This document shows, one piece after another, positions 3,604 through 10,741 of a DNA stretch of 64,000 bases. The stretch spans positions 1,178,001-1,242,000 of the forward strand of contig NZ_CP047946.1 in the NCBI RefSeq assembly GCF_014279655.1, given 5' to 3'. The stretch is from Synechococcus sp. ROS8604 (GTDB lineage: Bacteria; Cyanobacteriota; Cyanobacteriia; PCC-6307; Cyanobiaceae). The translations under genes and the position numbers were made by a program. The notes below the pieces were generated by a model that was given only the letters and a program-made list of their open reading frames with translations, made no database searches and was not told the origin of the DNA. Position 1 is the first letter of the stretch. Every line of letters starts with the position of its first letter.

Positions 3604-4185
3604 TTAGCCGATCCCCATAATCTTTTTATAGGAAGGACGTTCGCGCGTGGATTGAATTAATGCTTCGACTGAAGGATAGGCACTGAGATCCTCACTTGGG
3701 AAGAATAATTTGATATATGCCAAATAAGATGAGATTGCGCAATCAGCGGCACCCCATTTGTTGTTGACAAAATATCCTTTTGCAATTTCTGAATTTAGTT
3801 GCGTCAAAAGTCTTGGCAGGGTTTTTGCTTTTTGGTCTGGAACAAAAATCGCAAACGCTAATGTTGAGTTGGCAAAATGTGTCCATTGGCTAATTAATGA
3901 TCGATCGTATGGCCTTTTTACCTCGTTGCCATGATGCTCAGCTAAATGCAATAAAATGGCTCCTGATTCAAATAAGACAAGAGGTTGTCCGTTGGCATCG
4001 ACAACGGAATCATCCTTCATAGCTGGAAGTTTCCCGAAGGGATTAATCGATAGAAAATCTTCTTTTAGATGTTGTCCTTCAGCCAGCGAGAGTTCTACAA
4101 GCTCATAGGCAATGCCCATTTCTTCCATGTACCAACGGGGCATGGAGGCGCGGGTTTGGGGCCCGCCATAAAGGATGATTGTCAT
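3604..4185 (-). CDS. Glutathione S-transferase family protein (copy 1)
   Basis: A 193-residue protein with a thioredoxin-fold N-terminal domain: LYGGPQTRASMPRWYMEE (5-22), NPFGKLP (48-54, with the cis-proline) and ESGAILLHLAE (73-83, the E-S pair that holds the glutamyl part of glutathione). A helical C-terminal domain has WGAADCAISSYLAY, the GST N-capping-box region. The first serine in the catalytic area (S14) could activate glutathione, but this is not certain. A clear paralogue lies at 10154-10741 on the same strand. Its substrate is unknown; such enzymes usually serve detoxification or redox work in the cytoplasm. It lies 77 bases downstream of the LPOR-like gene and may be co-transcribed with it. 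Confidence 0.85.
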   Translation of the reverse strand: MTIILYGGPQTRASMPRWYMEEMGIAYELVELSLAEGQHLKEDFLSINPFGKLPAMKDDSVVDANGQPLVLFESGAILLHLAEHHGNEVKRPYDRSLISQWTHFANSTLAFAIFVPDQKAKTLPRLLTQLNSEIAKGYFVNNKWGAADCAISSYLAYIKLFFPSEDLSAYPSVEALIQSTRERPSYKKIMGIG

Positions 4186-5502: not shown

Positions 5503-5742
5503 TCACTGTTGTGGAATGCGCTCCCACCAGGATGGCTTGAGAAATGTGTCTTCATCGTTTGCTTCTACCAGGTCGCCGTTATTGAATTGATCAAAGTCAT
5601 GGGGGTGAATGTCAAATCCCCTCTCTGTGGCAACACTGCATTGATCATCGACATCTGCGCACTGACTTGATGCACAGAGAGCTTTCAACGTTGCATCGGC
5701 TTTGATGGCGTTGGCAAGGTCGATCACGGCCTGAGCGGACAT
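5503..5742 (-). CDS. Nif11-like small protein
   Basis: A 79-residue protein. Its first half, AQAVIDLANAIKADATLKALC followed by VATERGFDIHPHDF, follows the Nif11 domain pattern: an amphipathic helix, then an A-x-x-x-GF-x-h motif. Nif11-type sequences occur as stand-alone proteins and as leader regions of ribosomal peptide natural products. Here there is no double-glycine cleavage site. The C-terminus is acidic and ends with the unusual run LKPSWWERIPQQ. Three cysteines lie in the first half. No modification enzyme is nearby, so a peptide-product role is unsupported; a small regulatory or structural role is equally possible. ATG at 5740-5742. Confidence 0.6.
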   Translation of the reverse strand: MSAQAVIDLANAIKADATLKALCASSQCADVDDQCSVATERGFDIHPHDFDQFNNGDLVEANDEDTFLKPSWWERIPQQ

Positions 5743-6584: not shown

Positions 6585-7061
6585 TTGAGAAGAGTTGTTC
6601 CGGTGCAGACGCCAATGGCCTCGTTGCCAGTTCCGGTTGAAGGACCTCTAGAGCGTGGTTTGCATCAGGACGGCAGGCGCTTAACTCCCCAGCGTCGACT
6701 AATTCTCGATCTGTTTGAACAAATCGGTGGCGGTACTCACCTCAGTGCCGAGGATGTCCACCGTTTGCTGGTGGATTCAAAGGCCCGGGTCTCATTGGCG
6801 ACGATTTACCGCACCTTGAGACTGTTGGTTGAGATGGGCTTTCTGCAAGAGCTTGAACTGAGTGATGGCGGTCGTCGTTTCGAGCTCTCCAGCGGCGATC
6901 ATGGCGATCATCATCATTTGATTTGCGTTCGTTGCGGCCGCACCGAAGAATTTGAAAGCATCCCGGTTCTTGAGGCTGGCCGTGATGCAGCCAAGCGATT
7001 CAACTTTGAACTGATCGAATCGAGTTTGAACGTGCGAGCCGTTTGCCCTAATTGCCTTTAA
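6585..7061 (+). CDS. Fur-family metal/peroxide-responsive repressor
   Basis: A Fur-superfamily regulator. The winged-helix part has RLTPQRRLILDLFEQ and HLSAEDVHRLL, with the recognition helix region SLATIYRTLRLL. A metal-binding core HGDHHHLICVRCG follows, and a second CxxC (CPNC) lies at the very end. The two CxxC pairs suggest a structural zinc site. From sequence alone I cannot separate Fur (iron), Zur (zinc) and PerR (peroxide); Fur or PerR seem most likely. Several starts are possible: TTG 6585, GTG 6603 or ATG 6615, the last giving 148 residues. Its stop is directly adjacent to the stop of the convergent repeat-protein gene. Confidence 0.85.
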   Translation: MRRVVPVQTPMASLPVPVEGPLERGLHQDGRRLTPQRRLILDLFEQIGGGTHLSAEDVHRLLVDSKARVSLATIYRTLRLLVEMGFLQELELSDGGRRFELSSGDHGDHHHLICVRCGRTEEFESIPVLEAGRDAAKRFNFELIESSLNVRAVCPNCL

Positions 7062-7535
7062 TCATTGATCGTTGCTTGGATGCTCTGAACAGGGCATCCA
7101 GAAGTCACCCATCGCGTGCACCCCTTGGCATCCTTGTGCAGCGGCCTGGGCTTCGGCTTCGGCCCGGGTGGGGTAGGCCATGAACCTCGGGTCATCGCCC
7201 TCTTGATGTTGGTTTGGCTGTCCATGCTGGTGAGCGCTGTGATCAGTCGAGTTTTTGCCTAAGGGCACGAGCCCCATGCTCATCGGTCCTGCGGTCCAAA
7301 CGCCCATGGTGTTCACTCCGATCGCCAACAGACCCATTCCCACCACCGAGAGGTTGATCACACCCATCGCGACAACTCCGATCGAGACGACCCCCATCGG
7401 AACAACCCCGATACAAATCACCCCCATGGGCACAACTCCGATGGAGACCGTCCCCAGCGGAGCAATTCCGATTGCGAATTTCTTTGGCGTCGTGCCGCAG
7501 TGTCCTCCTTTGGTCTTTGGGTCTGGATCAATCAT
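7062..7535 (-). CDS. Decapeptide-repeat protein with C-terminal DUF3721-like domain
   Basis: A 157-residue protein in three parts. Residues 1-23 are a polar head with one cysteine. Residues 24-93 are seven consecutive 10-residue units of the pattern VVPMGVxxIG. Residues 94-115 form a His/Gln-rich linker (five histidines). Residues 118-152 match DUF3721 as I recall it: FMAYPTRAEAEAQAAAQGC, then GVHAMGDFWMPC. The repeat has hydrophobic residues and glycine at fixed spacing, so a regular solenoid or a beta-rich membrane-associated fold is likely. It is unlike a standard pentapeptide repeat. Histidines and the paired cysteines suggest metal binding, and its convergent neighbour is a Fur-family regulator, but both links are inference. 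Confidence 0.7.
   Translation of the reverse strand: MIDPDPKTKGGHCGTTPKKFAIGIAPLGTVSIGVVPMGVICIGVVPMGVVSIGVVAMGVINLSVVGMGLLAIGVNTMGVWTAGPMSMGLVPLGKNSTDHSAHQHGQPNQHQEGDDPRFMAYPTRAEAEAQAAAQGCQGVHAMGDFWMPCSEHPSNDQ
7257..7466 (-). repeat. Seven 30-base coding repeats
   Basis: The DNA encoding residues 24-93 of the repeat protein consists of seven 30-base units. Copies two to four are most alike; at the codon level they share GG, ATG and GTG triplets at fixed positions. On the plus strand this appears as a periodic run of CCCAT and AACTCCGAT-like blocks. The repeats lie fully in frame, so unit gain or loss would not shift the reading frame. Confidence 0.8.
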
Positions 7536-7590: not shown

Positions 7591-7854
7591 ATGGACCTTT
7601 CTGGCGTTTCAGGCTTTCACGAAATTATCGTGCTCCAACCCCGAGGATTCGAAGAGGGGTTGGACGCGGTCATGGCTGTACGCGAGCAACGCACTGTTCT
7701 GCTCAACCTTTCAGAGATGGAGCCGAAACTGGCGCAGCGCACCGCTGACTTCGTTTCTGGTGGCGTCTATGCCCTGCAGGGGCAGGAGCGTCGTGTGGGA
7801 GAGCGGGTGTTGTTATTTGCACCAGCTTCTGTTGATATTGATCAGCTCAGCTAA
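7591..7854 (+). CDS. SepF-like (DUF552) protein
   Basis: An 87-residue protein from ATG 7591 (GTG 7585 and TTG 7555 are in-frame alternatives). The core VLLNLSEMEPKLAQRTADFVSGGVYAL and the end ERVLLFAPASVDI match the C-terminal domain of SepF/Ylm, the FtsZ-associated cell-division protein that forms a small alpha/beta sandwich. Canonical cyanobacterial SepF (Cdv2) is considerably longer, with an N-terminal membrane-binding helix and a linker, both absent here. This is therefore a stand-alone SepF-domain paralogue, and a role in division is inferred only from homology. Its 3' end overlaps the convergent arsS gene by eight bases. Confidence 0.75.
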   Translation: MDLSGVSGFHEIIVLQPRGFEEGLDAVMAVREQRTVLLNLSEMEPKLAQRTADFVSGGVYALQGQERRVGERVLLFAPASVDIDQLS

Positions 7855-8896
7855 GGGCTCCACCACAGCTGGAGCCTCCTCCAGCTGTGCATCCGAAACA
7901 GTGAGCTCCAACAGCTATCGGTTGGTTGTTGACGCTTCCAAATTGATTCAGAAGTTCATTAAGGGTCCTTGGTCCAGAACGCACGGGGATGCCTAATTGT
8001 TGATTGAAATCGCAGTCGAACAAATGTCCAGTCCAGTCGACACTGATCAAATGTCTGCACATCACTGCGCTGAGGTTGTTGTCGCGATGGGCTTGATGCA
8101 GCAAGGCGTAATAATCCTCAAGCTCACCATGGGCCTTTAACGTTTGGGCAAATCTTTGAATTGGCATGTTTGTGATGGTTAATAATCTGCTGAAATGAAT
8201 GCCATGATTTCCCAAGAGTTTTTCGCGATATATGCGTTCTAATTCTCCTTGTGCTGGTGGTAATTGTGCCCCTGAAGGATTGAAGACTAAATCCAGTTCA
8301 AGGTTGCTATTAGGCATTCCATAACCCAGTGCATTCAGGCTTTGTAGGCCAGCAATACTGCGCTGAAAAACACCAGCCCCTCGTTGGGTGTCTACTCTCC
8401 CCTCTTCAAAACATGGGAGAGAAGCAACCACTTTGACTCCTGCATCGGCCAAAAATGCAGCTAAATCTTCTTGGCCAGGTTCTTGCAGGATCGTGAGATT
8501 GCAGCGATCAATCACTTGAACACCAAGGTCCCGAGCTTCTTGGACCAGTGATCGGAATTGGGGATGCAGTTCTGGAGCACCTCCCGTTAGGTCGAGGCAG
8601 TTGAGTTTGAGCGTTTGGAGAACCTTGGGAATGAGCTTGATGTGCTCCTCTTCCATCATTTCCGTTCGCCACGGTCCCGCATTGACATGACAATGGCTGC
8701 AGCTCTGATTGCAGCGGTAGCCCAGATTCACTTGAATTGTCTCCAGCTCTCCACGGTTGAGTGCAGGGAACGGCTTCGCCCTTCGCTTGGGATCTTGCTC
8801 AGTGAGAGGGGAGATGGATGTCAAGGTGAGGGGATGAGGGGACCGAGGTGTTGGTTGTGGAGAAGGCTGCAGCGCTGCTGATGAGTTATTCAGCAT
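7847..8896 (-). CDS. arsS: Arsenosugar biosynthesis radical SAM protein ArsS
   Basis: A 349-residue radical SAM protein from ATG 8896-8894. Longer readings up to 8968 would run into the upstream gene, whereas this ATG lies just inside the stpA stop, giving a short coupled overlap. The cluster motif CNQSCSHC (about 62-69) is the CxxxCxxC that binds the 4Fe-4S cluster. The C-terminus has HCFGCTAGGGSSCGG, the cysteine-rich DUF3641 tail typical of ArsS. ArsS is proposed to build the deoxyadenosyl/ribosyl arsenical precursor of arsenosugars from dimethylarsenite. The usual partner, the arsenite methyltransferase ArsM, is not in this window. Confidence 0.85.
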   Translation of the reverse strand: MLNNSSAALQPSPQPTPRSPHPLTLTSISPLTEQDPKRRAKPFPALNRGELETIQVNLGYRCNQSCSHCHVNAGPWRTEMMEEEHIKLIPKVLQTLKLNCLDLTGGAPELHPQFRSLVQEARDLGVQVIDRCNLTILQEPGQEDLAAFLADAGVKVVASLPCFEEGRVDTQRGAGVFQRSIAGLQSLNALGYGMPNSNLELDLVFNPSGAQLPPAQGELERIYREKLLGNHGIHFSRLLTITNMPIQRFAQTLKAHGELEDYYALLHQAHRDNNLSAVMCRHLISVDWTGHLFDCDFNQQLGIPVRSGPRTLNELLNQFGSVNNQPIAVGAHCFGCTAGGGSSCGGALS

Positions 8897-10097
8897 CAGT
8901 GCATGAATGAGGCAATGTTTTAAACCAATCGACGTACTCATTGGGACCTCCCTTGACGAGGCAGTCAAAACGGAGTGGGTCGTCAGGATCGCTGATCCCT
9001 GACAGCTGGCTGTTGCTCAAATTCGGGCGATCGACTTCTCCATGACTGCTGTCCACAAGAACAACACGGGCTGGCCGGTCATAACTTGCACCGAGTTGTT
9101 GAAGAAGGGTTAAAAAGCCTCTGTCGCTTCCTCCTCGCAACCAACCATTACCCAGTGGACAGGGCGTGGATGTCACGGTGTCACCGACGCCAACCAGCAT
9201 CGGAATGGCATCGCGTTTGATGTGCTGATGACAAAGATCCAGCAGGGCTTGATGATCGTGGGGCGCGTTGCGCACATTGAACCTCTCACCAAGTGGTGCA
9301 GTCCCGGTTTTTTGTGCGATGTGCCGATTGATGAGCACGAGCAATCCCACTTCTTTGATGGCTCCCTTCAGCATGAATTGGATGTCAGTGGTTCCAACAT
9401 CGCCAGGTACTGCCGGTTTGATTCGTTCCTCACCAGAGGCATCAAGTCCCAGGTTTGGAGCGACGTGTAGAAAAAATGACTTGGGTAGTCCAGCCTCTGC
9501 AGCGGCTGACATCAGGGCATCCATCAAATCGGACAACATCAATTGCAGCTGTTTTTGGCGATCCACGTCTCCTTGGATCCTGCTGAACAGACTGTTCAGA
9601 TTGATGGTTGGTGAGACTTGCGTATCAAGAATGGCGAGCTTGAGTTCTTCCTCGAGTGCTTGGCCCTGTAAATCAGGCAGGACTTGACTCAGTTTGAAGC
9701 GCAATAGATCTTCCATCCTTTGAGGCACGGATTCCAGGAAGCTCATTTCCTCATCGCTGACCCCGGGGTGGCAAACCATGCCAAATCGGTCTTGAAATTG
9801 AACGCCTCCCGCGGCCAGCCCTGGCAGGTAGAGCCCCTCCTGTTGGGCCTTCTGGTTGTCGCCTAGGGCTTTTTCAACGAGTCGGTTTACACCTCGCCTC
9901 CCCTCATGTTCACCGTTCGTCAGCACGCTGAACTTGTTTTGCATCGCTGCCGCCGCTTGCACGTAATCAGCGCGAAGGCTGCGGGTGAGCGGATCTTTGA
10001 CAAGGGGCATGCAAACTCCGTCGAGGTCTTGCACGATCAGCAAGTCTGTCTCCGCACTCATTTCGTCACGGAGTGCATCAAGGCTTAGTGGTGCCAT
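8886..10097 (-). CDS. stpA: Glucosylglycerol-phosphate phosphatase StpA
   Basis: A 403-residue protein with an HAD-type nucleophile motif QDLDGVC (23-29; D24 nucleophile, D26 acid/base) and a late acidic motif VGVGDTVTSTPCPLG. Length and overall sequence fit cyanobacterial StpA, which removes phosphate from glucosylglycerol-phosphate to yield the compatible solute glucosylglycerol. Its partner GgpS (the synthase) is not in the window. The protein acts in the cytoplasm during salt acclimation. It lies directly upstream of arsS, whose start overlaps its stop; the two may share a message even though the functions differ. Confidence 0.85.
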   Translation of the reverse strand: MAPLSLDALRDEMSAETDLLIVQDLDGVCMPLVKDPLTRSLRADYVQAAAAMQNKFSVLTNGEHEGRRGVNRLVEKALGDNQKAQQEGLYLPGLAAGGVQFQDRFGMVCHPGVSDEEMSFLESVPQRMEDLLRFKLSQVLPDLQGQALEEELKLAILDTQVSPTINLNSLFSRIQGDVDRQKQLQLMLSDLMDALMSAAAEAGLPKSFFLHVAPNLGLDASGEERIKPAVPGDVGTTDIQFMLKGAIKEVGLLVLINRHIAQKTGTAPLGERFNVRNAPHDHQALLDLCHQHIKRDAIPMLVGVGDTVTSTPCPLGNGWLRGGSDRGFLTLLQQLGASYDRPARVVLVDSSHGEVDRPNLSNSQLSGISDPDDPLRFDCLVKGGPNEYVDWFKTLPHSCTDAE

Positions 10098-10153: not shown

Positions 10154-10741
10154 TTAGCGCAGATTTCCCATGGCTTTGCGATAAGCGGGACGACGCTCAA
10201 CATGTTTGATTGTTGTTCGAATTGATGGATAGGGAGTTAGATCGACCTGGGGAAACATTAGAGGTAAATAAGCTAGATAAGCCTGAATAGCGCAATCCGC
10301 TGCTCCCCAGATGTTCCCTACAAGGGGTTGACCTGTTTCTAATTGGCAATCCAACTCTTTCATGAGACGCGGAAATTCTTTCTCTCGATGCCTTGGAACA
10401 AGCATGGCAATTGATAGGGTTGAGTTGGCAAACTGTAACCACTGGCTTGTAAGAGCTTTGTGTTCAATTGTTTGGATGTCTTCGCTATATTGCTCTGCCA
10501 AGTGCAAAAGGATTGCTCCGCTTTCAAAGAGGGTGAGGGGTTCTCTATTTGGCATTGAAATACTTGAATCGATCAGTGTTGGAAGTTTTCCGAATGGGTT
10601 GATTGCGAGGAATTCTGTGTTGTAGTTCTCGCCCTTCTGATGATCCAGTTCGATTAATTGATAGGAGATGTCTTTTTCCTCCATGTACCAACGTGGCAGA
10701 CTTGCCCTCGTTTTTGGGCCTCCGTAAAGCGTCAACACCAT
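10154..10741 (-). CDS. Glutathione S-transferase family protein (copy 2)
   Basis: A 195-residue paralogue of the protein at 3604-4185. Both begin with LYGGPxTRASxPRWYMEE, share NPFGKLP and ESGAILLHLAE, and keep the helical-domain segment WGAADCAI. Between those blocks they differ at many positions, so the duplication is old. The gene stands in front of stpA on the same strand with a 56-base gap. The function is presumably glutathione-dependent detoxification or reduction; the substrate is unknown. Confidence 0.85.
   Translation of the reverse strand: MVLTLYGGPKTRASLPRWYMEEKDISYQLIELDHQKGENYNTEFLAINPFGKLPTLIDSSISMPNREPLTLFESGAILLHLAEQYSEDIQTIEHKALTSQWLQFANSTLSIAMLVPRHREKEFPRLMKELDCQLETGQPLVGNIWGAADCAIQAYLAYLPLMFPQVDLTPYPSIRTTIKHVERRPAYRKAMGNLR

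Follow-up and report, generated by a model that had tools for sequence, protein, structure and literature searches.

The Pfam families GLTT (PF01744) and DUF3721 (PF12518) are already known, and no paper naming the GLTT repeat or domain, DUF3721 or either accession was found in one open-access literature collection. Copper proteins with Met/His motifs, e.g. those of the CopC and CusF types, provide one point of comparison for a protein in which both families are present. Another is provided by the pentapeptide repeat proteins (PF00805), the fold of which is given in a review as a right-handed quadrilateral β-helix (PMC8145042).

In the window, i.e. the whole 64,000-nucleotide stretch of Synechococcus sp. 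ROS8604 DNA that was analysed, GLTT and DUF3721 are tied together by fusion in a single minus-strand gene encoding 157 amino acids. New here are a ladder of Met, His and Cys residues in the repeat, the His tails of GLTT proteins without DUF3721, and the metal contexts of DUF3721 paralogues. The gene and its parts are as follows:

7062..7535, minus strand: coding sequence, 157 amino acids, stop codon included (open reading frame and relatives)
7494..7502, minus strand: N-terminal His-Cys-Gly motif, residues 12-14 (H12, C13 and G14 at 90% or more in 63 aligned relatives)
7257..7466, minus strand: GLTT-type pentad repeat, residues 24-93, seven 10-residue units (PF01744 8.5e-18, phase test, conservation, ladder counts)
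7188..7256, minus strand: His-containing linker, residues 94-116 (4 His in the sequence)
7077..7175, minus strand: DUF3721 domain, residues 121-153, with GCxGxHxMGxxWMPCxxH (PF12518 6.3e-15, same place in the genome-wide profile search, model pLDDT)

A pentad repeat fused to a DUF3721 domain

The sequence-only reading described seven perfectly phased 10-residue units at residues 24-93, and this description holds, with no insertion between the units (IAPLGTVSIG, VVPMGVICIG, VVPMGVVSIG, VVAMGVINLS, VVGMGLLAIG, VNTMGVWTAG and PMSMGLVPLG). The glycines and methionines, there taken as fixed, do follow a period of ten, except that unit 4 ends in Ser and unit 1 carries Leu27; one of the ten phases reads Leu (residue 27) and then six Met (residues 37, 47, 57, 67, 77 and 87). 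The accompanying view that this is not a pentapeptide repeat has to be given up, since the basic period is five. Of the 15 glycines in residues 21-93, 14 fall in one phase modulo five, a number reached in none of 100,000 shuffles (best shuffle, 11); two kinds of pentad, xxxMG and xxxIG, alternate to give the period of ten. The repeat belongs to the described Pfam family GLTT (E 8.5e-18; 64 bits against a curated cut-off of 21; five stretches), a match that rules out an unknown repeat family. It is, however, not of the PF00805 kind, which gave no Pfam hit at E up to 1 and whose A(D/N)LXX-type consensus the sequence does not follow. The C terminus, seen from the start as DUF3721-like, is indeed a DUF3721 domain, matching positions 1-33 (the full length) of the profile (E 6.3e-15; 55.1 bits against a cut-off of 27), in which two each of Cys, His and Met surround a Trp. 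There was no match to the protein in NCBIfam, nor among the sequences of solved structures, where no relative was identified by sequence.

The window gene is real and conserved. A match was found in 67 of 99 genomes, the own genome included, some of these matches being to one of the two domains only, and 45 of the 48 loci with relatives among the genome contigs searched are titled Synechococcus or Prochlorococcus. GLTT is present in 90 of 386 cyanobacterial genomes sampled (E up to 1e-4), and neither GLTT nor DUF3721 was found in any of 14 control genomes. The GLTT or DUF3721 genes of five loci (L152, L153, L189, L191 and L195) were placed by tblastn or hmmscan. A phage or plasmid origin was rejected, since searches of 50,697 phage and 72,556 plasmid records gave no relatives, 33 candidate stretches on viral contigs gave no confirmed case, and PHROGs and PADLOC gave no match. 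Two contigs (L007 and L014) filed as a gammaproteobacterium (CPC316) carry a typical Synechococcus copy with window-type neighbours, a probable case of binning contamination.

The alignment of 63 relatives was drawn from 106 homologous frames, and 62 of its members have a DUF3721-like ending; it omits close copies, short or separate GLTT frames, distant forms, two sequences containing N (L014, L019) and one that is frameshifted (L087). The suggested comparison of repeat number among relatives gave a divided result, in that residues 21-78 are gap-free in 63/63, ruling out free variation of repeat number, while the repeat is variable over its final one and a half units, the MG of the last being present in 41/63 and lost in the Prochlorococcus-type copies. 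M37, M47, M57, M67 and M77 are invariant in this set, and H12, C13, G14, C136, H140, M142, W146, M147, C149 and H152 are conserved at 90% or more. Stand-alone GLTT genes of about 65-100 residues lie near the fused gene at seven loci (L030, L047, L100, L101, L111, L124 and L183), and most of them have Cys in place of one ladder Met. The fused gene at L111:2131-2574 (genome G040) has one in-frame TGA inside the repeat and may be a broken copy or a sequencing error.

The structure predicted for the repeat depends on the relatives supplied. With the 63 near relatives the repeat was modelled poorly (pLDDT about 50) and DUF3721 as a helix and two strands (pLDDT block means 77-80, residues 121-150). 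With 43 wider relatives, the best of five models was all β (pLDDT block means 78-90 over residues 11-70 of the domain), the other four scoring 42-55. Either of the two arrangements proposed by the sequence-only reading, a β-solenoid or a membrane stack, may apply. Comparison of the first model with known structures gave weak matches to VgrG and to phage spike and fibre chains (best Z 3.2), and the β model gave one match above Z 5, to the adhesin EibD (Z 6.3, rmsd 6.1, 79 aligned residues). Both Z scores lie under the level that the tool regards as meaningful, and it rates the EibD match as possibly only a common arrangement; Foldseek against the PDB returned no matches at E up to 0.001. These likenesses are what would favour a secreted or surface β-structure, e.g. 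a trimeric stalk with the ladder in the trimer core and no role in metal handling. We regard this as very unlikely, given that no signal peptide is apparent by eye in the window protein, that in such cores other hydrophobic residues should also be acceptable, and that it leaves the metal contexts described below unexplained.

The Met/His/Cys ladder, the linker and the tails

The residue before every second glycine forms a ladder, newly described here, of possible metal ligands spaced ten residues apart. For 43 aligned GLTT domains, a set extending to other cyanobacteria, the 215 cells at the five inner positions of the ladder comprise 197 Met, 14 His and 4 Cys; the first position is less constrained (15 Leu, 10 His, 8 Arg, 6 Thr, 3 Met and 1 Ala). 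The wider count gives the same picture, 97 of 100 distinct segments having 381 Met, 27 His and 6 Cys in 485 ladder cells, with all 71 exceptions (Leu, Thr, Arg, Ala or Ile) at the first listed position. At the alternate positions these 97 segments have mainly Ile, Ala, Val, Leu and Phe, with a few others, among them two Met, one Cys and no His; the alternation is absent from L095 and from two L097 frames. Because the three segments dropped were those with fewer than three Met, His or Cys in either register, the excess of Met is partly selected, but the replacement of Met by His and Cys only is not. That Met, past the first position, gives way only to His or Cys looks like selection for ligands, and is what would be expected of a soft-metal ligand.

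A structural rod or a membrane plug, in which Met is kept for packing and only DUF3721 touches metal, is the alternative that we take most seriously, although we hold it to be rather doubtful. Residues 20-93 have no Asp, Glu, Lys or Arg and a GRAVY of 1.7, so that they may associate with a membrane, and the β-rich model is broken at the xxP positions. In the window protein Pro immediately precedes Met at two steps of the ladder (residues 36-37 and 46-47), and the stronger metal context belongs to DUF3721. Packing Met should, however, drift to Leu, Ile or Val, which is at odds with its replacement beyond the first position by His or Cys only, and His-bearing tails are found in 24 of 36 GLTT proteins that have no DUF3721.

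These tails emerge from a survey of 130 distinct ladder proteins, a DUF3721-like ending being present in 92 and absent from 36, with two set aside (L082, L087). Linkers in the 92, as defined by script, have three or more His in 53 cases and none in 36. In several relatives that have no His in the linker (e.g. L030, L031), a separate DUF3721 gene lies immediately upstream; its product begins like a leader and ends in a His-rich stretch. Of the 36 proteins lacking DUF3721, 24 have a tail with three or more His, one has a tail with two His, and 11 have no tail; these 11 are nearly all small, stand-alone and from picocyanobacteria. The core of DUF3721 itself is well conserved, the first Cys being present in 97/97 distinct domains and the His in 95/97; the pattern used for this count required the second Cys and allowed only His, Tyr or Phe at the His position.

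Gene neighbourhoods and regulation

The immediate neighbours of the window gene are these:

6585..7061, plus strand: Fur-family regulator, convergent (tail to tail) with the window gene (PF01475 2e-31; closest solved proteins are ferric uptake regulators)
7591..7854, plus strand: short SepF-like gene, divergent neighbour (PF04472 8.4e-21)
7847..8968, minus strand: arsenosugar biosynthesis radical SAM protein ArsS (TIGR04167 1.3e-131)
8886..10097, minus strand: glucosylglycerol-phosphate phosphatase, GgpP (TIGR02399 2.4e-167)

The flanking region also holds two similar glutathione S-transferase-like genes (by eye; 3604-4185 and 10154-10741, both minus strand) and a small Nif11-like peptide under the Pfam cut-off (5503-5742, minus strand).

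Loci of the window type (L002-L027 and L046, three of them titled Prochlorococcus) have Fur and ArsS in 27/27, GgpP in 25/27 and SepF in 17/27, and ZnuA, ZnuB, ZnuC or HupE in 0/27; the 27 matches to a Zur query are to Fur, with which that query cross-matches. In the 20 loci of the Prochlorococcus type (L049 omitted), ArsS, GgpP, SepF and, at 60% identity or more, Fur are found in none, while Znu genes are found in three, HupE in two and a porin-like gene in five (50% identity or more); 13 of the 20, with flanks of up to about 4 kb, lack all three. The porin-like gene has a His/Met-rich N terminus and is divergent from a DUF3721-GLTT pair (L181:3300-4487, L031:2673-3839); there is a weak OprB match for that of L031 (4.7e-6) and none for that of L181.

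The sequence-only reading gave weight to the convergent Fur gene. As a neighbour it is constant at loci of the window type, but its absence, at 60% identity or more, from the 20 Prochlorococcus-type loci means that the pairing alone says little. The same loci bear on a further alternative, that the protein serves another process (division with SepF, an iron response with Fur or, with GgpP and ArsS, the chemistry of compatible solutes or arsenosugars), the metal contexts of relatives being irrelevant to it. The frequency of these four genes at window-type loci speaks for such a role, but the protein is still conserved at the Prochlorococcus-type loci, where all four (Fur at 60% identity or more) are absent, and in other lineages the fused gene has Znu- and Zur-like neighbours; we consider this alternative improbable.

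DUF3721 genes elsewhere are more clearly associated with metals. The own genome has five, one being the window gene beside Fur, and three of the other four adjoin znuABC-type genes, an RND pump, or a multicopper oxidase/DUF411/MerR cluster, with no clear context for the fourth. The first of these three follows a ZnuA/ATPase/ABC-3 set in a stretch that also holds a second ZnuA and ABC-3, an ArsP_1 permease and a DUF1980_C protein, the second adjoins an ACR_tran (RND) pump, and the third lies among DUF411, DUF305, MerR and multicopper oxidase genes. The first stretch (L192, C1:1811500-1826500) is a metal island of about 10 kb comprising two ZnuA/ABC-3 systems, DUF3721, ArsP_1, DUF1980_C and a gene that looks cytochrome-like by eye.

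In 28 genomes hand-chosen from the 99, mostly complete, there are 84 DUF3721 genes. At least 19 of these, among the matches listed, lie within 3 kb of ABC-3 (0.27 expected from rounded genome sizes), eight within 3 kb of HupE (0.32 expected, likewise from rounded sizes), and at least 23, among the matches listed, within 3 kb of a Fur gene. An ABC-3 permease lies within 3 kb of a DUF3721 gene in 19/19 same-genus genomes, and since there is one such gene per genome, the link is probably one inherited arrangement rather than 19 events. For the nine genomes of other genera the matches listed include no ABC-3 within 3 kb, which is an undercount, because in two of them (G039, L174; G040, L184) the fused gene lies no more than 3 kb from a ZnuB-like one. 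In other lineages (L041, L042, L174, L177, L181 and L184), genes resembling ZnuB, Zur and ZnuC are found near the fused gene, and at L175 Zur-like and MerR genes.

For distant GLTT genes, neighbours were read in 24 genomes, of which four have clear metal genes and three a BlaI-type regulator; on reading, no metal-related neighbour was noticed in the other 17, one of which (L160) yielded no GLTT gene by gene caller or tblastn. The four cases comprise CopC/CopD in two genomes of one genus (DUF1775 confirmed in one), a set of HMA-ATPase, multicopper oxidase and DUF411, and an ACR_tran pump with a two-component pair, where the gene next to the pump on the GLTT side has no Pfam match. GLTT (L189) and DUF3721 (L195) are thus each found once beside a multicopper-oxidase/DUF411 cluster, and it is these two that are fused in the window protein. 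Linkage to metal transport in more than one lineage was found for paralogues and relatives, but not for the window's own lineage. Together with the ligand-like residues, the neighbourhoods of paralogues and relatives support metal handling as a likely general role, as the sequence-only reading had proposed.

With respect to regulation, the best solved match of the Zur-like genes of L181 and L175 is entry 7ne9 (1.5e-44 and 3.3e-37), which we take to be the Zur protein of WH8102, and another gene of the own genome matches the same entry at 2.1e-58. Scanning with a consensus for a Zur-type box revealed none in the approximately 110 bases upstream of the window gene, where at best 8 of 14 bases agree (8-10 of 14 upstream of seven relatives); in the own genome, the second znuA (position 1662 of the L192 locus) is preceded by a box that scores 13 of 14 in the same scan. 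The Zur regulon of WH8102 has been described as eight genes (PMC9337993); the main text of that paper does not contain the term 'DUF'.

A proposed role and comparison with known systems

The domain make-up, the residue conservation and the gene neighbourhoods are observed, and it is from the ligand-like residues and the neighbourhoods that we infer metal binding, the metal, the location and a relay or buffer role. On this basis the protein would be a metal-binding buffer or relay, linked to the envelope or at its inner face, a proposal that we hold to be somewhat on the probable side. A rigid, glycine-regular and probably β-rich GLTT rod would carry a Met every ten residues, replaced in some relatives by His or Cys; a flexible His-bearing linker would follow and then the DUF3721 domain, and the protein would hold a transition metal or pass it to and from importers and exporters. 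The Met/His/Cys ladder would be best suited to a soft metal, such as Cu(I), and the znu neighbourhoods to zinc. Weighing against the proposal are the lack of a Zur-type box upstream of the window gene, of metal-transport neighbours in its own lineage and beside most of the distant GLTT genes read, of an apparent signal peptide, and of linker His in 36 of the 92 relatives with DUF3721. More speculatively, and to our mind unlikely, though less so than a trimeric stalk or a role in another process, the cyanobacterial GLTT repeat may be a molecular wire or store for a soft metal, a glycine-regular β-rod in which Met, His or Cys side chains are stacked every ten residues and Cu(I) or a similar ion is handed between a His-rich or DUF3721 collector and membrane transporters. 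If so, the repeat fold would exist to form a linear metal ladder.

Both families point to the handling of trace metals in picocyanobacteria, the growth of which depends on scarce metals, and the ladder provides a concrete hypothesis.

Comparison with the known systems brings out both likenesses and differences. A glycine every five residues is common to the GLTT family and the window protein; the Pfam description of the family names no function, and the Met/His/Cys alternation is a feature of 97 of the 100 cyanobacterial segments examined. The DUF3721 match covers all 33 positions of the profile, but several other members are short proteins with a leader-like N terminus (by eye), while in the window protein it forms part of a GLTT fusion. 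Pentapeptide repeat proteins share the five-residue period and the β prediction, but have an A(D/N)LXX-type consensus in place of the xxxMG/xxxIG pentads of the window repeat. Finally, although no sequence relation of the window protein to any solved chain was found, the interchange of Met and His at candidate ligand positions resembles that in the Met/His-motif copper proteins of the CopC and CusF types.
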